From: Hyalangium ruber | GTDB lineage: Bacteria; Myxococcota; Myxococcia; Myxococcales; Myxococcaceae | Assembly: GCF_034259325.1 (NCBI RefSeq) | Contig: NZ_JAXIVS010000024.1 | Coordinates: forward strand, 1-64,000 | Reading direction: 5' to 3' | Length of the DNA stretch: 64,000 nucleotides | Part shown: positions 6,975 to 30,070 of the stretch, one piece after another | How positions within the stretch are numbered: the stretch's first letter is position 1 | How the letters are laid out: every line of letters begins with the position of its first letter | The notes under the pieces: generated by a model | Databases searched by the model: none | The model's input: the letters and a program-made list of their open reading frames with translations, nothing else | Told to the model about the DNA's origin: nothing | Translations under genes and position numbers: made by a program

Positions 6975-8563
<1,589 letters not shown>

Positions 8564-8754: not shown

Positions 8755-10248
8755 CTACATCTGCAGGTTGAACACGGACCAGTGCCAGAACACGCCATCG
8801 CGGAAATCCGCGTAGCGAATGCGGTACTGGTTCTGAGCAAGCATCACGCCGCCCTGTTTCAAGAACGGATTCTGGTTGGTGCCGTAGGGGAAGGGATCGT
8901 TCACCACCAGCCAAAGGCGGCCAGCACGGCGCTGGTAGCCGACGATCAGCACCACGTGCTCGGCGTCGGCATTGGCGATTCGATGGTTGTAGGAGATGCC
9001 GGCAATCACGGGTTGGCCAGCATCGATATTGGCCAGCACCGCGGCCGGTGAAATCGCGCCGGCCTCGGAGTAGGTGACGGTGCGGCCAGCGGCGGCGCGT
9101 GCGTAGTTGGACAGCATCGACAGCGTGCCACGGTTGGAGCCGCTGGGCACCACACAGGCGAAGCATTCCGAACCACAGGGCGCGGACGGGTGCGAGATCC
9201 TGCCGATGATGCCGCACTGGAAGTTCCCAGCCGGATTGACGTTGGGCACGCCATAGTGCTGGAAGACCATCTCGCCCACGGCCAGCCAGCACCAGACGTG
9301 GGTCTGCTGCCGCACGGCGGCGATGTCGAGCACGCGCCCACCCGTCCCAGCAGGTACCACGTTCATCGCCTGCTCCGCGCGCACGTCCGGGGTGCGCACG
9401 GGGGCAACGCGCTTTCGCCAGGCGCCGGCGAAACGCACTTCGCCGTCCTCGACGTAGGGTGCGATCACGTAGGGCGCGAAGTCCTGAGCCGCCAGGGTGC
9501 GGACCCGCGCGGCGTGCGCGTCCAGGGTGGCGTCCGAACGCGCCTGCCAGTCGGCGCCGTCCATCCTCTCCCAGATGGCTGCGTAGCGCGTCTCGCCTCC
9601 TCGCGAGTACACACTGATGTCCACTGGCACGAATCCCAGGGGTGTCAGCCGGTCATATTGCGCTTGGTACTGGGCCGCGCTCAGGTCGCTGCGCGACTCG
9701 AACTCGACGCCGGGCCGGCGTGTCCAGAGCGCAGCGTAGCGCGGCTCACCGTCCACGGCGTAGCCCACCACCGAGGCGGGCACGTACCCCTCCTGGGTCA
9801 ACTTGTCGGCCAATGCCTGGAAATGTTCGGCATCCATGTCCACGCGCACTTCCCAGGCCACGCCGACCTTGCGCTGCCAGATGGCGCCATAACGCGCGGT
9901 AGTGCCCTCGGAGTGGATGGCGAGCGAAACCGGCACGAAACCGCGCTGCTTAAGGCGTTCCAGGCGCTTCGTGAACTGGTCGAGGTTCAGGCCGAAGGAG
10001 GCCTGCCAAGCAACTTCGGGCTGTTGCACGAAGGCCGCGTGGTAGCGCACATCGTTTTCGTTGGCGACGCCGCTGATCTCGATGGGAACGTAGCCCTGCG
10101 GCGACAGGGTATCCATCGCCTCCTGCAGCGCCGCGGGCGTCAGGTTGTAGCGGGCTTCCCAGGGCTGGGCCATCGCGGACTGGTCGATAGCCAACCAGGC
10201 GGCGAAGAACGATACCCACTTCAGCAGCGCTTTCGCATTCCCGGCCAT
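8755..10248 (-). CDS. secreted BTRD1-repeat protein with AvrRpt2/C39-like cysteine protease domain
   Basis: A 497-residue exported protein. A signal peptide (residues 1-28, ending SAMA-Q) precedes five tandem repeats of about 50 residues at about 30-278. Each has a W-x-A/E-R start and a GF/GYVPV core followed by RYAAIW-type strands, the pattern of bacterial tandem repeat domain 1. Residues 303-497 are a papain-like domain of the C70/C39 type: QQTHVWCW (Gln314/315, Cys320), EHVVLIVGY (His431) and VVNDPF (Asn450/Asp451). Start ATG 10248 has GAGGAGG upstream. It is probably an extracellular peptidase. The repeats may bind polymer or cell wall. The next gene upstream is divergent. Confidence 0.8.
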   Translation of the reverse strand: MAGNAKALLKWVSFFAAWLAIDQSAMAQPWEARYNLTPAALQEAMDTLSPQGYVPIEISGVANENDVRYHAAFVQQPEVAWQASFGLNLDQFTKRLERLKQRGFVPVSLAIHSEGTTARYGAIWQRKVGVAWEVRVDMDAEHFQALADKLTQEGYVPASVVGYAVDGEPRYAALWTRRPGVEFESRSDLSAAQYQAQYDRLTPLGFVPVDISVYSRGGETRYAAIWERMDGADWQARSDATLDAHAARVRTLAAQDFAPYVIAPYVEDGEVRFAGAWRKRVAPVRTPDVRAEQAMNVVPAGTGGRVLDIAAVRQQTHVWCWLAVGEMVFQHYGVPNVNPAGNFQCGIIGRISHPSAPCGSECFACVVPSGSNRGTLSMLSNYARAAAGRTVTYSEAGAISPAAVLANIDAGQPVIAGISYNHRIANADAEHVVLIVGYQRRAGRLWLVVNDPFPYGTNQNPFLKQGGVMLAQNQYRIRYADFRDGVFWHWSVFNLQM

Positions 10249-10348
10249 GCACCCCTCCTCTGTTGGACCCTGGCGACTTCCAACGGCTCCTCGTTTTCCC
10301 CGTAGCAGCCCTCTACTCTGCTCCCTTCTTCGCCAGAAGGGGTGACAC

Positions 10349-11713
10349 ATGATTCCGTGGCGGATTCTGTGGAAGGCCGAAGCACTGTTCATGGTGTTGC
10401 TCGTGGGGTGCAGCAGCCTCCCGAAGGTCCCCCGAGTGGAGGACACAGGCCAGGAAAGAGCCGTTGTCCACATTCCCCGTAACGCTGGCCTACAACCCGT
10501 CACGCTGGAGCAAGCAGAGTTCCAGCAGGCCATGAGGCGCCTCTCGCGCGAGGTGCGGCTGTCAGGCACTCCGCGCCAGACGGTGGAGAAGATGTTTCAG
10601 ATGGATCCTCAGTTCGGCAACTACCTCTGGCTGGAGAAGGACAAGAAATTGGTGCCGCTGGGGCCGGGCGAGCCCCTGGAAGGGGCGTTGACGAACGAGG
10701 ACCTGGAGACGGCGGAACGCTACCGGCTCTGGTGCCAGCGCGTTCACAACTTCTACGGCGACTGTCTCGGGGGCGCGCTGGTGGGTGGGCGATACCTGGA
10801 CATGCACGGTCGCTACATCTGGGCGCTGGCCCTGAGCAAGAGCCCAGTAATCGATGAGACGAAGAAGGCGCTGAGAGAGATGGTGGAAGTCCGCGCGCTC
10901 ATCAGCACAGTCCTATGGACGTTGGGTTCCATGCTGCTGATCATGGCGATCAACCCCGTGGCTCCAGCACTGGTGGCGGTAGTCGGCACGGGACTGATTC
11001 TGTATGTGGGCGTTGACACGCTCCTCAACCTCGTGACCGGCTGGAGCCAGTTGATGGAAGAGGTGAAGGTGGCGACCACCTTCGAGCGGATCCGCGAGGC
11101 AGGCGAGCGCTTCGGGAAGATCATCGGACGCGAGGCAGCCCGCGCATTCGCCATGCTGCTGATGGCGGCAATCGGCTCGACGGCGAAACTGTTCGCGGCG
11201 AAGGTGCCGACGCTGCCCGGATCGGCGCAACTGTTCGTGCAGGCAGAGGACACGGCAAAAATCTCGCTGCCCGTGTTGGGCGCGGTGGAGGAGATTGCGC
11301 TGACGGCAGAGGGCGTGAGCGTAACCGTGGCCTCCGCCGCGATGACGATGGGAGCGAGTGGAAGTGGCGGCACGAGCCCCTGCATCGAGAAGCACCACAT
11401 CGCCACCATCTGCAACGACAAGTCCACCGCGCGCGGTGGACCGTGGACTCCCAGGTTCCGGGAGATCTTCGACAAGGCGGGAATGTCGATGGATGACCCG
11501 GTGAACAAGATGCCTCTGCCGGGGCACTACGGGCCACACCCCGAGCGGTATCACCAGATCGTCCTTGAGGAACTGCGAGGTGCAACGTTGACCTGTCGTA
11601 GCATTGTGGAGTGCCGGAGGGCGTTGACCGGCGCACTCCAGAAACTGGCCAAGCAGATCGCCACCCCAGGAACAGAGCTGAACCAACTCGTCACCCAGCA
11701 GCAACCGCGCTAG
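10349..11713 (+). CDS. Sit-like lipoprotein toxin with C-terminal AHH/HNH-type nuclease domain
   Basis: A 454-residue lipoprotein. A basic-hydrophobic leader ends in a lipobox (LLVGC, Cys21). The middle (about 180-335) has several hydrophobic stretches. The C-terminal 345-415 segment carries EKHHIATICND, GGPWTPRF, DPVNKMPLPGH and GPHPERYH, the conserved blocks of AHH-type nucleases of the HNH fold (His349/350, His397). The gene is followed after 12 bases by an Imm11-type immunity gene. This architecture matches the SitA toxins of Myxococcus, lipoproteins passed between kin by TraAB-dependent outer-membrane exchange. Delivery by that route is inference, since traAB are not in the window. Confidence 0.8.
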   Translation: MIPWRILWKAEALFMVLLVGCSSLPKVPRVEDTGQERAVVHIPRNAGLQPVTLEQAEFQQAMRRLSREVRLSGTPRQTVEKMFQMDPQFGNYLWLEKDKKLVPLGPGEPLEGALTNEDLETAERYRLWCQRVHNFYGDCLGGALVGGRYLDMHGRYIWALALSKSPVIDETKKALREMVEVRALISTVLWTLGSMLLIMAINPVAPALVAVVGTGLILYVGVDTLLNLVTGWSQLMEEVKVATTFERIREAGERFGKIIGREAARAFAMLLMAAIGSTAKLFAAKVPTLPGSAQLFVQAEDTAKISLPVLGAVEEIALTAEGVSVTVASAAMTMGASGSGGTSPCIEKHHIATICNDKSTARGGPWTPRFREIFDKAGMSMDDPVNKMPLPGHYGPHPERYHQIVLEELRGATLTCRSIVECRRALTGALQKLAKQIATPGTELNQLVTQQQPR

Positions 11714-22228: not shown

Positions 22229-23218
22229 TCAGCGCGGGGCGCTCTGGGCGTGAGCCCGGCGCGCCCGCTTCTCGCGCTCGCCCAGCGCCGCCTGCAGGAA
22301 CTTGCCGGCGAGCTTGCGGCCGATGAGCTCCTGGGCCAGCTCGCCCGCCTCGACGAGCTTGTCCATGTTGATGCCCGTCTCCACGCCCATGCCGTGGAAC
22401 ATGAAGACGGCATCCTCCGTGGCGAGGTTGCCCGCCGCGCCCGGAGCGTAGGGGCAGCCGCCCAGCCCGCCGATGCTGGCGTCGAACGTGGTGACGCCCG
22501 CCGACAGGCCCACCAGCGCGTTGGCCAGCGCCGTGCCGCGCGTGTCGTGCATGTGCAGCGCCAGCTTCTCCACGGGGATGTACTTGAGCAGCCCGGAGAG
22601 GATCTCCTCGGTCTGCCGGGGCGTGCCCACGCCGATCGTGTCCCCCAGGCTGAGCTGGTAGATGCCCATGTCCACCAGCTTGCGGCAGACGTCGACCACC
22701 CGCTCCACCGGCACGTGGCCCTCGTACGGGCAGCCCCACACCGTGGACAGGTAGCCGCGCACGCGCATCCCCGCCTGGGTGGCCGCCGTCACCACCTCGC
22801 GCGAGGACTCGATCGCCTCGGCGATCGTCTTGTTGATGTTCTTCTTGGAGTGGGCCTCGGAGGCGGAGATGAAGATCGCCGCCTCTTGAAGGCCGGCCTC
22901 TCGTGCCCGCTGCAGGCCCTTGAGGTTGGGCACCAGCGCGGAGAACACGACGCCCTCCTTGCGGCCGACCAGGCGCAAGAGCTCCTCGGCGTCCGCGAGC
23001 TGGGGGATCCACTTGGGTGACACGAACGACGTCACCTCGATGCGCTTCTCGCCCGAGGCGACCAGCGCTTCGATCAGGCGCGCCTTGTCCCGGGTGGGCA
23101 GCGTGCGCAGCTCGTTCTGCAAGCCATCCCGAGGGCCGACCTCGTAGACGTCGACCTTCCGGGGGAGGCTGCCGAGCCAGGCGCTTATGCGCGATTGGGA
23201 ATGTTCGTTCGAATCCAC
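22229..23218 (-). CDS. mvaB: hydroxymethylglutaryl-CoA lyase
   Basis: A 329-residue enzyme that cleaves HMG-CoA to acetoacetate and acetyl-CoA, the last step of leucine catabolism. Signature motifs are [10 protein letters not shown] near the N-terminus, [20 protein letters not shown] (metal-binding His pair) and [15 protein letters not shown], which contains the catalytic Cys. The only plausible start is GTG 23218, inside the upstream gene with a 34-base overlap, so translation is probably coupled. The last 25 residues are basic and Ala-rich. It is the third gene of a methyltransferase / B12-subunit / lyase operon. Confidence 0.92.
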
Positions 23219-23589
23219 TTGACGATGTCCTGCGTCGAGCTCCCCGGGGTGAAGATCTCCGTCACCCCCAGGCCCTTGAGTTTGGGAATGTCGTCGTCCG
23301 GGATGATGCCTCCGCCGAACACCCGGATGTCCTCGGCCTTGCTGCCCTTGAGCAGGTCGATGACGGCGGGAAAGAGCGTCATGTGCGCGCCGGACATGAT
23401 GGACATGCCGATCGCGTCGACGTCCTCCTGGATGGCGGCGTTGACGATCATCTCGGGCGTCTGGTGCAGCCCTGTGTAGATGACCTCCATACCCGCGTCG
23501 CGCAAGGCCCGCGCGATGATCTTCGCACCGCGGTCGTGCCCATCCAGGCCCGGCTTGGCCACCAGAATTCGAAGCTTCCTCTCAACCAT
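23185..23589 (-). CDS. cobalamin-binding subunit of methylmalonyl-CoA mutase-type enzyme
   Basis: A 134-residue stand-alone B12-binding domain, the usual length for the small subunit of two-part acyl-CoA mutases. It has [12 protein letters not shown], the DxHxxG motif whose His replaces the lower cobalamin ligand, SGAHM, and [10 protein letters not shown] near the end. Its likely partner is the large subunit encoded at 28107-30014, which lacks this domain. It overlaps the methyltransferase upstream by eight bases and the lyase downstream by 34. Whether the substrate is methylmalonyl-CoA or another acyl-CoA cannot be settled from this subunit. Confidence 0.9.
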
Positions 23590-24310
23590 GTCGCAGCTCA
23601 GCTCCCACGATGAGGTCCGTCGAGGCGGACGATAGCGGCTCGCCTGCCAGGCCGCCGTGTACCCACTTCGGCGCGAGGCCCGTCGATTCCAACAGTTGGA
23701 CCAATTCCGCAAGAGGATAGTAACGGATGGCGTAAGCCCCTGATAGCACTCGCCCATCTGGCAGTGTGAGCTGGCGGCGGCCGTGGTCCCGGCCGGTAGC
23801 GGAATCGAAGCGGCTCTCCTCCTCCAACTGGCTGCCATCGGGCAGGGAACGCTGGAAGGCGGCGCTTGGCTGCTCGCTCAGTCGCTCGTAGGGGACGGTC
23901 TGGAGGACCAGGAGTCCTCCGGGCTTCAGACACCGAGCGATCTCCTGGAGGATGACGCGGTGCTCCATGTCCGAGAAGGCGAAGAGCGTTGAGTACCAGG
24001 CATAAGCGCCGGCCAACGAGCGAGGCTGGAACGGGAGGGCGCGGAGGTCCCCCCGGACGGCGGGAAAACCGGGGGCTCGGTGGGACAGGGAGTACGCGTC
24101 GAGCTCGAGGCCGATGACGCGCCCGGCCAAGGGCCCGGAGGTATTCAGGGGAGCGGCGTGGCGACCGTGTCCGCAGCCGAGATCGACGATGGGACCGGAG
24201 GGGGCGAGGCCCGAGAAACAACGCTGCAGGTAGGCTACCTCGCGCGTCGTCACCTCGGGGGCGAGGAAGGGCAGCGTGCTGCGCAGGTACAGCTCACCGA
24301 AGAAGCTCAC
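23582..24310 (-). CDS. class I SAM-dependent methyltransferase
   Basis: A 242-residue methyltransferase. Motif I is [12 protein letters not shown] (about 42-53). An acidic end of strand 2 (GLELDAYSL) and a post-I region GDLRALPF are followed by [11 protein letters not shown] and the post-II/III phrase [11 protein letters not shown]. The methyl acceptor is not evident. It is the first gene of the operon with the B12 subunit and HMG-CoA lyase, which it overlaps in series. It is divergent from the triple-fusion gene, with only about 60 bases between the starts, so the two promoters must lie close together or overlap. Confidence 0.85.
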
Positions 24311-24372
24311 GGGGCCTGGGAGGGGTTCGAGGGGAGTCCAGGAGTCATCATAAGTCGTTAGAGTCTAGAGGT

Positions 24373-26634
24373 ATGGCTGGCTCGCCCCTGCTGCGCACGA
24401 GTGAGAAGTGTCCGGTCGAGTTCGATCCCGGGCTCACGGATCGCACCTGCTCGCTCCAGCCGGTGGAGGGAGTGCCGGGAGCGTACCTGTTGGCGCCGGT
24501 GCTCTCGCGAGAGGAGTGCGAGCAGCTGATCGCGGCCACGGAGGCGCTGGGGTACGCGCCGAAGAAGAGCCGGCGTTCGGGGCCCCCCATCCGGACGAAC
24601 ATGCGGTTGCTGTACGAGGCGCACCCGGAGCTGGTCTCCACGCTGGCGTCGCGGATGCGGCCTCACCTGGAGTCGATCGACGTGAGCGCGGCGGGCAGGT
24701 GGCGGTTGTTGGAGGGCAGCCGCTTTCCGAACGAGCGCTGGAGGATGAACCGCTACTCGGAGGGCGAAGAGTTCTTCCCGCACTTCGACACGGGGTACGA
24801 GTTGGGGCGGGACAGCCGCTCGCTGCTGAGCGTCATCCTCTATCTGAACGAGGACTTCGAGGAGGGAGACACGGTCTTCTTCCCGGGGGGACAGACGCGG
24901 GACAACATGCTGCCGGGGGACGAGGATGCACGGGAGGTGCGCGTCCGGCCGGCGGCGGGAACGGCGCTGGTGTTCCACCATTACGGACCGCTGAGCCCGA
25001 GGCACTCGGGGCTCTCTCCGGTGCGGTGCCAGCGGCCGAAGTACATCATCCGCACGGACATCTTCTACGAGCGGGAGCCGGTGCCCGCGAGCGCCACGCT
25101 CTTCGGGCGCAGTCCGGAGATGCACCGGTGCGTGGTGCTGCTGGGGCCTCCGGGCGCGGGGAAGAGCACCCAGCTTCGCCAGGTCTCGGAGGCGCTGGGG
25201 TTCACGGGGCTGGACTTCGGGCACTGCGTCCGGCGCGAGTTGGCACAGGGCACGGAGCTGGGCGCGCGCATCCAGGAGTTCCGGAGGAAGCGAACGGCGC
25301 TGCAGGATGCGGCCTTCGGAGCGACAGGGGCCCAGCGGAGACCGGGCGGGTGGCTGCCGGATGCCCTGGGCCTGGAGATGGTCGAGAAGCAGATCGAGGG
25401 CCTCGGTCTCTCACGCGGGGTGCTGATCGACGGCTTCCCGCGCATGCGCTCCCAGTCCAACTTCCTGGAGGGCAGCCGCTGGCTGTTGCTCGCGGCGGTG
25501 TACCTGCGCGTAGACGAGCGCGTGCGGGAGGAGCGCCTGCAGGGGCGAACCATCGATCCGGCCACGGGACAACCCTTCCATGCGAAGCACGCGCCATCGA
25601 GCCAGCCGGCACAGGCCGTCAAGCGGCCCGAGGACGCGCCGGAGTCAGTGAACGCGCGAATGGTGGACTGGGAGCGGGACACGGTGCCGCTCCTGGAGCA
25701 CTACGCCAAGCGCGGGGTGGCGGTGGAGGTGGACGCCAACGGGCCGCCCGAAGAGGTAACGCGCGCCATCCTCCATGCTTTGTCTCGGAGGCTCCTGGAA
25801 GAAGCCACTCCCCTCTTCCCCCCTGCCCTGTCCGAGCTGTTGGCCAACGCGACAAGCGACGGAGTGAACCGCGCATCCCGCCCGGACTCCCTGGTGTTCC
25901 GGTACGAGCCCCCATCCGGGCCCGCGCTCTACCTCAAGCTGGCACCCCCCTGGGGAGCACCGCTGAGCACCGAAGCCCGCTTCCTCCAGTCCGCGAGCGC
26001 CCGTCGACTCGGGCTGAGCGTGCCCACCTGCCGAGGCCTCTTCACGATCGGAGGGGACGTGACGGCCTTCGTCACCGAGGAACTCCCCGGGACCTCCGCC
26101 AAGCGCGCCGCTCAGGCGTTCACCCAGGACACAGAGCGCGACGCGCTCGTGCGCAATCTGGCTTGGGCACTGGGACAGTTCCACGCGCTACCGGTGACCG
26201 AGGGGCTTACCGACCATTCCATAGCGGCCCTGCTGCGACGCGCGCGGGAGCGCCTCACCCGAGGCGAGGTGCCGCTGCGCAATTTCACCGCCAAGTATGG
26301 CCTCACCCTGAACAACACCGCCGAACTCACCCAGGAACTCGAGCGCATCGAGAGCGCTGCGCGGGCACTGCCAGAGGGGCCACGAGTATTCCTCCACGGA
26401 GATCCCTGCCTGCCCAACTTCCGGGTGGATGACCGCGGCGCGTTCATCGGAGCCCTGGATCTCTCAGGGGTCAGCTTAGGGGACCGTTATTGGGACATCG
26501 CCCTGGCCCACTGGTCCGTGCAGCACAACCTGGGTGCGCCGTGGGCGGAACGCTTCCTCGAAGTCGCCAGTCAGGGCGCCATCGACCGGGAGCGTCTGAA
26601 GTTCTTCACCGATCTCCGCAGGTTCCTGGTGTGA
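24373..26634 (+). CDS. triple fusion: prolyl-4-hydroxylase-type dioxygenase / adenylate kinase-like / APH phosphotransferase
   Basis: A 753-residue protein joining three complete enzyme modules. Residues 30-235 are a P4H-type Fe(II)/2-oxoglutarate dioxygenase with HFD (His137, Asp139), RHSGLSP (His211) and Lys223 for 2-oxoglutarate. Residues 252-470 are adenylate kinase-like: P-loop GPPGAGKST (K264), an AMP-site region with an insertion at about 305-326, DGFPR (353-357), a LID (RLQGRTIDPATGQPFHAKH) and an Arg-rich KRPED...NAR. Residues 480-753 resemble APH(3')-type kinases: Lys522, HGDPCLPN (675-682) and ALDLSGVSLGDRYWDIA. All visible catalytic residues are kept. The stop overlaps the next gene's GTG by four bases. 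I know of no named family with this order. Together the modules could hydroxylate and phosphorylate one substrate, which is inference. Confidence 0.85.
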   Translation: MAGSPLLRTSEKCPVEFDPGLTDRTCSLQPVEGVPGAYLLAPVLSREECEQLIAATEALGYAPKKSRRSGPPIRTNMRLLYEAHPELVSTLASRMRPHLESIDVSAAGRWRLLEGSRFPNERWRMNRYSEGEEFFPHFDTGYELGRDSRSLLSVILYLNEDFEEGDTVFFPGGQTRDNMLPGDEDAREVRVRPAAGTALVFHHYGPLSPRHSGLSPVRCQRPKYIIRTDIFYEREPVPASATLFGRSPEMHRCVVLLGPPGAGKSTQLRQVSEALGFTGLDFGHCVRRELAQGTELGARIQEFRRKRTALQDAAFGATGAQRRPGGWLPDALGLEMVEKQIEGLGLSRGVLIDGFPRMRSQSNFLEGSRWLLLAAVYLRVDERVREERLQGRTIDPATGQPFHAKHAPSSQPAQAVKRPEDAPESVNARMVDWERDTVPLLEHYAKRGVAVEVDANGPPEEVTRAILHALSRRLLEEATPLFPPALSELLANATSDGVNRASRPDSLVFRYEPPSGPALYLKLAPPWGAPLSTEARFLQSASARRLGLSVPTCRGLFTIGGDVTAFVTEELPGTSAKRAAQAFTQDTERDALVRNLAWALGQFHALPVTEGLTDHSIAALLRRARERLTRGEVPLRNFTAKYGLTLNNTAELTQELERIESAARALPEGPRVFLHGDPCLPNFRVDDRGAFIGALDLSGVSLGDRYWDIALAHWSVQHNLGAPWAERFLEVASQGAIDRERLKFFTDLRRFLV

Positions 26635-28034
26635 GCCCTTCCCACGAGCCCATCCGCCATATCGCGATCATCGGCCTGGGCTGGCACGCCCGCCGCGTCT
26701 ACTACCCATGGCTGGAGGAAGCCGCGCTCCAGGGACGCCTGCGCATCAGCGCGGTGGTGGACTTGCACGACAACAGCACTGCGGTGCAAGGCTTCCTCGA
26801 CCAGCGCCGGGTGACGCCGGACCAACTCCTCCTGACAGAGCCCAGCACCGAGCCCGGGCGCCTGCCCGAAACGGTCACCGCGCAGCTCGCCACGCTAAGG
26901 TCCGCCGGGAAGCTGGACGGAGTGGTGATCTCCACCGAGCCCCGAGCGCATAAGGGCTACGTGCTGTGGGCGCTGAGCAACGACGTCCATGTGCTGTTGG
27001 ACAAGCCCATCACGGCTCCGGCCACCGCCACGAACACAGCGGAGGTCGCCCAGGAACTGTGGAGTGACTTCGAGGACATCTCCCGAGCGCTGGCGGCCTC
27101 GAAGGCGCGACTCGTGGTGCAGGCCCAGCGCCGGGTGCATCCGGGCTACACCTTCATCAAGCGCTACCTGGACGGCTTCCTCCAGGAGTTCGGAGTGCCG
27201 ATCTCCTTCCTGGACAGCTACCACGCCGACGGCATGTGGGTGATGCCGGACGAGTGGGACCGCGAGCACCACGCCTACAAGTACCGAACCGGCAAGCTGT
27301 TGCATTCGGGCTACCACTTCGTGGACCTGGCCTCCTGGCTGTTGGAGAGCAACGACCGCCTGAGCTCCGCGCCAAGCTCCCTGGAGTTCCAGGTCCAGAC
27401 GTTCCAGCCGAGTGACTTCCTGGCGCTGCTGGACGGTCGCTACGAGCGACTGTTCGGAGCAGGGAGCGCGCCCAAGCCGGTCCCATCCGTCGAGAACCAC
27501 GGGGAGATGGACCTGATGCTTATGGGACGCATCCTCTCGGAGGGGCACGTCCGCACCCTGCTCTCCCTCCAGTTGTTGCAGAACTCCTTCTCCCGCCGCG
27601 CATCACCGGCTCCACCCGTCGACCTCTACAAGGGAGCCGGGAGAGTGCGGCACGAGCGACTGAACCTGCAAGTGGGGCCGTTGCTCAACCTCCAGGTCCA
27701 TTCCTACCAGGCCTACGAGGTACGGGACCGACGGGAGCAATTTCCCTACGGCCCGGGGCACCTCGACCACTTCGACGTCCACGTGTTCCGAAACTCGGAC
27801 GTGGTGGGAGGCACCAGCTTCGAGAAGCTCGAGTTCGGCAAAGCGGCCCAGCGCCAGGGCCATAATGAGCAGGCGCGCATGGACCTGCTGGAGACGTTCG
27901 TGGAAGGGCGTCCGAGCGGCTCCGAGCTGGAAGACCACCGCCGGACCAACCTCTGGCTCTCCCGCATCTACCAGGCCATCCACGGGCGGCAGACCGAGGC
28001 GCTCTCGGTCTGCACCCTGCCCTGGAAGGACTGA
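26631..28034 (+). CDS. Gfo/Idh/MocA-family oxidoreductase
   Basis: A 467-residue NAD(P)-dependent dehydrogenase. The Rossmann motif IIGLGWHARR is at about 13-22, and the family's catalytic Lys is in LLDKPIT (124-128). A long C-terminal beta-sheet substrate domain contains HSGYHFVDLASWLL. It is about 100 residues longer than typical sugar oxidoreductases of the family. It starts at GTG 26631, overlapping the triple-fusion stop as GTGA, so both are made from one message. The substrate is probably a sugar or cyclitol, which would suit an APH-type kinase partner; this is inference. A bidirectional terminator follows. Confidence 0.85.
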   Translation: MSPSHEPIRHIAIIGLGWHARRVYYPWLEEAALQGRLRISAVVDLHDNSTAVQGFLDQRRVTPDQLLLTEPSTEPGRLPETVTAQLATLRSAGKLDGVVISTEPRAHKGYVLWALSNDVHVLLDKPITAPATATNTAEVAQELWSDFEDISRALAASKARLVVQAQRRVHPGYTFIKRYLDGFLQEFGVPISFLDSYHADGMWVMPDEWDREHHAYKYRTGKLLHSGYHFVDLASWLLESNDRLSSAPSSLEFQVQTFQPSDFLALLDGRYERLFGAGSAPKPVPSVENHGEMDLMLMGRILSEGHVRTLLSLQLLQNSFSRRASPAPPVDLYKGAGRVRHERLNLQVGPLLNLQVHSYQAYEVRDRREQFPYGPGHLDHFDVHVFRNSDVVGGTSFEKLEFGKAAQRQGHNEQARMDLLETFVEGRPSGSELEDHRRTNLWLSRIYQAIHGRQTEALSVCTLPWKD

Positions 28035-28056
28035 GCCCCTCGGTGGGGCACTGAGC

Positions 28057-28083
28057 AAACCTGTCTGACAACCAGACAGGTTT
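28057..28083. terminator. bidirectional stem-loop terminator
   Basis: AAACCTGTCTG and CAGACAGGTTT form a perfect 11-bp stem with a five-base loop. It lies between the converging Gfo/Idh/MocA and acyl-CoA mutase genes, 23 bases from each stop, and reads as a terminator with a short T-run in both directions. Confidence 0.75.
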
Positions 28084-28106
28084 AGCTGAAGTGCGCCCGA
28101 AGGAGC

Positions 28107-30014
<1,908 letters not shown>

Positions 30015-30070
30015 GGCGCGGGGATGTAGCACCCGCACCCAGGGGTCGCAAGCCGAGCGGACTCCGGCTG

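Follow-up and report, generated by a model that had tools for sequence, protein, structure and literature searches.

A dioxygenase-kinase-kinase fusion coupled to a Gfo/Idh/MocA dehydrogenase in Hyalangium ruber: a probable two-gene route for small-molecule modification

The Gfo/Idh/MocA family of dehydrogenases includes NtdC, RifL, Pur10 and AdgB among its members. The substrate of NtdC is glucose 6-phosphate and that of RifL, which acts with the kinase RifN, is UDP-glucose (PMC8788734), whereas Pur10 acts on ATP (PMC11641026) and AdgB of the ADG operon, as its authors propose, on GTP (PMC9239236). In the cordycepin pathway, the oxidoreductase Cns1 is partnered by the nucleoside kinase Cns3 (PMC8869658). 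Here, we describe a two-gene locus of the myxobacterium Hyalangium ruber, in which a gene for a three-module fusion protein, made up of a 2-oxoglutarate (2OG)/Fe(II) dioxygenase, an adenylate-kinase-fold (ADK) kinase and an aminoglycoside-phosphotransferase-fold (APH) kinase, is followed by a gene for a Gfo/Idh/MocA dehydrogenase. The locus lies in a window of 64,000 nucleotides (assembly GCF_034259325.1, contig NZ_JAXIVS010000024.1, positions 1 to 64,000), to which the coordinates in Table 1 refer. The pair probably forms a small route for modifying a sugar- or nucleoside-like molecule, and is probably not an antibiotic-resistance system. All four enzyme families were already known, and what is new is the combination of the fusion with its coupled dehydrogenase, not a new kind of system; the literature that we searched held no description of the three-module fusion or of its coupling to such a dehydrogenase, in line with an earlier note on the window, made from its sequence alone, which knew of no described pathway with this set.

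The fusion gene, its coupled dehydrogenase and their occurrence

The 753-residue triple fusion is a genuine observation. Its frame is uninterrupted from the ATG start through all 753 codons, and its three Pfam domains exceed their curated cut-offs: PF13640 (2OG-FeII_Oxy_3; residues 125-226, E 3.5e-8, 34.7 bits against a cut-off of 27), PF00406 (ADK; residues 256-448, E 5.8e-20) and PF01636 (APH; residues 519-745, E 8.9e-22). Homologues were sought in 60 related genomes and then in 195 genomes of the phylum. Four further genomes (G014, G029, G128 and G129), which all belong to a single other genus, carry both fusion and dehydrogenase in the same gene order, and their fusions align over the full length with 73-75% identity to that of the window. 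Because the full-length fusion is also present in these four genomes, chance, a frameshift and an assembly or sequencing error are excluded. The earlier note had described three complete modules in one chain and a translationally coupled dehydrogenase, both of which are borne out, and had warned that the modules might prove to be separate genes in relatives and their fusion here a sequencing error; the four relatives instead carry the same domain order in one gene. The GTGA overlap that couples the two genes recurs in 4/4 loci inspected (the window, L036, L037 and L045). A longer entry in the list of open reading frames, starting at 26490, was rejected as the dehydrogenase gene, whose true start is the GTG at 26631. 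A sixth genome, G105, carries the dehydrogenase alone (36% identical).

Every module is under purifying selection. Pairwise ratios of nonsynonymous to synonymous substitution rates (NG86) are 0.10-0.16 in the dioxygenase module, 0.15-0.28 in the ADK module and 0.26-0.38 in the APH module, and the dehydrogenase has 0.20-0.24; a decaying fusion is excluded as well. A search for the fusion pattern gave no match among viral contigs, and its matches among plasmids were ordinary adenylate kinases only. Defence-system models matched the fusion through a generic CRISPR-associated 2OG model (E 8.4e-12) and one further, weak match, and none of them matched the dehydrogenase; we do not claim a defence role for the pair, the good match being limited to that generic model.

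In the second genus, the pair sits among other genes, and the two genes alone are shared with the window. In two relatives without the pair (G007 and G008), BLASTN homology to the window ends at 28109 and restarts at 24312, and methylmalonyl-CoA mutase is followed directly by a methyltransferase, the B12-binding subunit and HMG-CoA lyase. The stretch absent from these relatives contains just the two genes and a hairpin with an 11-bp inverted repeat, which sits between the converging dehydrogenase and mutase genes and is probably a two-way transcription terminator. Since few genomes of the phylum carry the pair, and since it has a different location in the second genus, an insertion in the window genome is a simpler account than a loss in the relatives; since the neighbourhoods differ between the two genera, only the two genes would travel together. 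The pair is probably a self-contained, horizontally moving two-gene unit. Near the ends of the presumed insertion, there were no direct repeats, no tRNA and no odd base composition. Neither the mutase nor the divergently encoded methyltransferase (23582-24310) was accepted as a partner of the pair, because the two are adjacent to each other in the pair-less relatives. In the window, methylmalonyl-CoA mutase and its B12-binding part have separate genes (23185-24310 and 28107-30038), and in G007 and G008 the methyltransferase lies between them.

Table 1. Coordinates of the fusion gene, its modules, the dehydrogenase gene and the presumed insertion in the window.
Feature	Position	Strand	Basis or remark
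Fusion gene, 753 aa: 2OG dioxygenase, ADK-fold kinase, APH-fold kinase	24373..26634	+	Open reading frame and Pfam
Module 1, residues 1-248: prolyl 4-hydroxylase-like 2OG/Fe(II) dioxygenase (predicted)	24373..25116	+	Pfam, residue alignment
Module 2, residues 254-472: adenylate-kinase fold (predicted)	25132..25788	+	Pfam, residue alignment
Module 3, residues 477-753: APH(3')-like kinase (predicted)	25801..26631	+	Pfam, residue alignment
Gfo/Idh/MocA dehydrogenase, 467 aa	26631..28034	+	GTG start sharing 4 nt (GTGA) with the TGA stop of the fusion
Perfect 11-bp inverted repeat, AAACCTGTCTG-ACAAC-CAGACAGGTTT	28057..28083		-21.4 kcal/mol for the stretch, z -4.9
Presumed insertion	24313..28108		The corresponding site in G007 and G008 lacks this stretch

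Catalytic and acceptor sites of the four enzymes

The active sites of the fusion were checked via residue mapping; single-sequence structure prediction of the fusion gave a pLDDT (predicted local distance difference test) of 35. By its Pfam match, its HxD...H triad (H137, D139 and H211) and a basic 2OG-binding residue, module 1 is assigned to the 2OG/Fe(II) dioxygenase superfamily, and iron- and 2OG-dependent turnover is predicted. H137, D139, H211, K223 and R227 are invariant between the module and its WD40-fused and standalone paralogues. Its nearest solved relatives by sequence are the prolyl 4-hydroxylases 2jig, 3gze and 3itq, matches in the PDB being weak (E 0.007). In related genomes, the module has paralogues that are joined to WD40 beta-propellers (L047 9785-11329; L049 8659-10107); the pairing is unusual and suggests that these copies bind proteins.

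Module 3 keeps the Brenner motif HGDxCLPN, and its catalytic D677 and N682 and metal-binding D696 (equivalent to D190, N195 and D208) are present in 5/5 fusion proteins. For the acceptor side, we compared seven positions of APH(3')-IIa that we take, from the 1nd4 structure and after a partial check against a review, to form the aminoglycoside site. All seven are replaced in 5/5 proteins: D157 by N, E160 by A or S, R226 by W, D227 by S, D261 and E262 by R, and F264 by L. In APH(3')-IIIa, loop residues 157 and 160 together with E262 and F264 contact aminoglycosides, and E262 and F264 are critical (PMC3691515). The best NCBIfam APH family for the module is APH(3') NF033068, at 107.8 bits and far under the cut-off of 205. 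Two basic residues stand where a cationic drug needs acids, and a neutral or anionic acceptor may therefore be argued; judged by its residues, the module is not a typical aminoglycoside kinase. The only other APH match in the phylum at E 1e-15, in G105, was discarded as an NPTII cloning-vector contaminant. There (G105:C199; L080 1495-2289), NPTII with a common cloning-vector marker sequence lies beside vector-type open reading frames, and represents contamination of a public assembly, not a natural homologue.

On its ATP and phosphate side, module 2 retains the P-loop and the equivalents of K13, R36, R88, R119, R123, R156 and R167 in 5/5 fusion proteins, and the equivalents of G85 and Q92 are likewise kept in 5/5. 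Four residues of the AMP site, S30, T31, L58 and V59, are invariant in 18/18 canonical adenylate kinases (17 from the same phylum and one from Streptomyces) and are D, F, W and L, respectively, in 5/5 fusion proteins; in E. coli Adk, T31 binds adenine N7 (PMC3369945). Further changes are D33 to H or Q, M53 to R, and 18-19 extra residues inserted in the nucleoside monophosphate (NMP)-binding domain. The module is 28% identical to E. coli Adk, as against 46% for the canonical enzymes compared, and its TIGR01351 score of 117.5 bits is under the curated cut-off of 168. The window genome carries a second, separate adenylate-kinase match elsewhere. The module is probably not an AMP kinase or a nucleotide-recharging enzyme. 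An Anaerolineales genome has two adenylate-kinase matches in head-to-tail arrangement with about 0.1 kb between them (G198:C2:598-2001), possibly a double adenylate kinase.

The dehydrogenase matches PF01408 (GFO_IDH_MocA; E 1.7e-8, 35.6 bits against a cut-off of 24), and an AlphaFold model built with three distant relatives reached a pTM (predicted template modelling score) of 0.79. Structural matches of the model are sugar and nucleotide-sugar dehydrogenases and include WlbA (Z 29.9), GFOR (Z 28.5), GenD2 (Z 28.0) and KanD2 (Z 27.8), the best match having Z 30.6; sequence identity to the listed solved sugar dehydrogenases is 11-18% at Z about 28-30. The Rossmann domain and the overall modelled fold place the enzyme in the Gfo/Idh/MocA family. 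The catalytic Lys of the (E/D)KP motif is K125, in a D-K-P motif that is invariant in 6/6 sequences including those of other phyla, and the usual Asp of the triad appears, in the motif alignment, to be replaced by His225.

Relatives of this dehydrogenase occur at 39-49% identity in three Anaerolineae/Anaerolineales genomes and in Streptomyces antioxidans (G197), and at 26-45% in further Streptomyces-family genomes (10/297 matched besides S. antioxidans). The fusion was found beside none of the Anaerolineae and Streptomyces relatives examined. In G197 and G353, two thymidylate-kinase-like genes lie within about 5 kb of the dehydrogenase and make up 2/4 and 2/5, respectively, of the genome-wide PF02223 matches; a rough estimate of the chance of two PF02223 genes in a 12-kb stretch is about 1e-5 per genome, the two clusters being homologous. 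A thymidylate-kinase-like gene with a weak Pfam match is found directly downstream of the dehydrogenase in L035 (Anaerolineales), APH-fold kinases flank the dehydrogenase on both sides in G223, G359 and G411, a PhyH dioxygenase and an APH-like gene (HxDxxxxN) lie near the relative in G298, and a TauD dioxygenase near that in L034. The neighbours of the dehydrogenase relatives thus recall the parts of the fusion as separate genes, in a handful of events and not a survey. That kinases and 2OG dioxygenases recur beside this subfamily in Streptomyces and in one Anaerolineales genome offers a starting point in the search for larger pathways.

Two features of these loci were recorded in addition. 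The L035 dehydrogenase gene is split (7816-8376 and 10058-10885) by about 1.7 kb with helix-turn-helix and transposase-like open reading frames. A recurring Streptomyces cluster (L067-L069) consists of the dehydrogenase, two APH-fold kinases, a PIG-L deacetylase, an Ldh_2 dehydrogenase and a 431-residue protein with no Pfam match.

Proposed function and competing explanations

With a probability of roughly 0.55, we propose that the pair is a self-contained, probably mobile two-gene unit with four enzyme activities for a single small metabolite resembling a sugar or a nucleoside. The APH module would phosphorylate a hydroxyl of the metabolite, and the ADK-like module, which keeps the arginines for the AMP phosphate, would add a second phosphate to the same or a similar phosphomonoester. 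With NAD(P), the dehydrogenase may oxidise a ring hydroxyl of the phosphorylated metabolite, like NtdC and Pur10, and the dioxygenase may hydroxylate or oxidise the same scaffold at some stage. Being fused and translationally coupled, the four activities would be produced in equal amounts and stay near one another. As the pair comes without the aminotransferase and phosphatase of the precedent pathways, it may decorate a common metabolite or cooperate with genes elsewhere. The processing of one sugar-like metabolite, suggested in the earlier note, is kept as plausible. That note's view that every expected active-site residue was visible applies only to the catalytic residues and those on the ATP side, since each of the two kinases has a rebuilt acceptor site. 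Its suggestions of a resistance system and of nucleotide recharging fared worse: the replacements in the APH acceptor site contradict aminoglycoside inactivation, and nucleotide recharging is unlikely given the changed AMP base site.

Several points weigh against this proposal. Neither a transporter nor an aminotransferase, a phosphatase or an assembly gene is encoded in the insertion, and other parts of the genome would have to contribute for the pathway to be complete. The ADK module retains G85 and Q92, adenine contacts of AMP, and its acceptor could contain adenine. Prolyl 4-hydroxylase-type enzymes often use peptides, and the WD40-fused paralogues could mean a protein substrate for module 1. 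Among the dehydrogenase relatives, L032 and L033 (Anaerolineae) are without kinase or dioxygenase neighbours, the kinases and dioxygenases that adjoin the Streptomyces dehydrogenases are members of other subfamilies, and the clusters within each set are mutually homologous and therefore do not represent many independent events.

A nucleoside-type natural product, in which a nucleoside is phosphorylated twice to a diphosphate and its ribose oxidised by the dehydrogenase, would be a special case of the proposed metabolite route and is a minority possibility that we take seriously: one module is of ADK-fold origin with G85, Q92, R36 and R88 kept, the Cns1-Cns3 partnership of the cordycepin pathway offers a published parallel (PMC8869658), and the dehydrogenase family is repeatedly paired with thymidylate-kinase-like genes, whereas the AMP site no longer has T31, S30, L58 and V59, and the aminotransferase, Nudix or phosphatase partners of the puromycin and ADG operons are missing. 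It is rather unlikely that the pair modifies or regulates a macromolecule, with the prolyl 4-hydroxylase-like module hydroxylating a protein or peptide and the kinase modules phosphorylating it or sensing nucleotides. The solved relatives of module 1 and its WD40-joined paralogues speak for such a role, as does the relationship of APH-fold enzymes to protein kinases, but the coupling to an enzyme of sugar-dehydrogenase fold in every genome, the small-molecule kinases adjoining dehydrogenase relatives and the weakness of the PDB matches speak against it. Drug resistance, in which the APH module would inactivate an aminoglycoside or other antibiotic and the other modules would assist or modify it further, is the least probable account, by a wide distance from an even chance. 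It draws on the intact Brenner motif and on APH(3') as the top-scoring APH family, and a different, non-cationic drug could be envisaged; the score far under the family cut-off and the loss from 5/5 proteins of all seven aminoglycoside-site residues, including the drug contacts 157, 160, E262 and F264 (PMC3691515), count against it.

A more far-reaching version of the metabolite route, which we advance tentatively as doubtful, is that one polypeptide hydroxylates a metabolite resembling a nucleoside or sugar, phosphorylates and then pyrophosphorylates it, and hands it to the coupled dehydrogenase. If true, two mobile genes would hold the core of a class of small natural products, phosphorylated or of nucleoside type, that has not been described before. 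The two genes are small and self-contained, so that expression in a laboratory strain could reveal the product directly, and the rebuilt acceptor sites would show APH(3')-like and Adk-like kinases turned to a new substrate.

Comparison with described enzymes and pathways

Each of the four enzymes resembles a described family and departs from it. With prolyl 4-hydroxylase-like PF13640 dioxygenases, module 1 shares the HxD...H triad and basic residues in the 2OG-binding region, whereas its similarity to the solved prolyl 4-hydroxylases is weak (E 0.007) and it is joined to two kinases. Module 2 has the P-loop, the LID arginines, R36, R88, G85 and Q92 in common with Adk, and differs from it by S30D, T31F, D33H/Q, M53R, L58W, V59L and the 18-19-residue insertion. 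Module 3 is similar to APH(3') enzymes such as APH(3')-IIa (PDB 1nd4) in its C-terminal-lobe sequence, Brenner motif and metal-binding Asp, but all compared aminoglycoside contacts are replaced, its score is under the APH(3') cut-off and it is part of a fusion. The dehydrogenase shares the predicted fold (VIA Z 28-30), the Rossmann motif and D-K-P with the Gfo/Idh/MocA sugar dehydrogenases (WlbA, GFOR, GenD2 and KanD2; NtdC and RifL); it is longer (467 aa versus about 340-380) and, unlike WlbA, GFOR, GenD2 and KanD2, has conserved blocks of its own (YHADGMW, HSGYHF, SFSRR and YKGxGRVRHER).

At the level of pathways, the puromycin and ADG operons (Pur10 and AdgB) and the cordycepin cluster (Cns1-Cns3) share with this locus a dehydrogenase for phosphorylated or nucleoside substrates beside nucleotide-handling enzymes. 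The insertion differs from the puromycin and ADG operons in having no aminotransferase, Nudix hydrolase or phosphatase. The fused dioxygenase and APH modules have no counterpart in the puromycin, ADG or cordycepin systems, Pur10 and Cns1 being compared by function, not by sequence.

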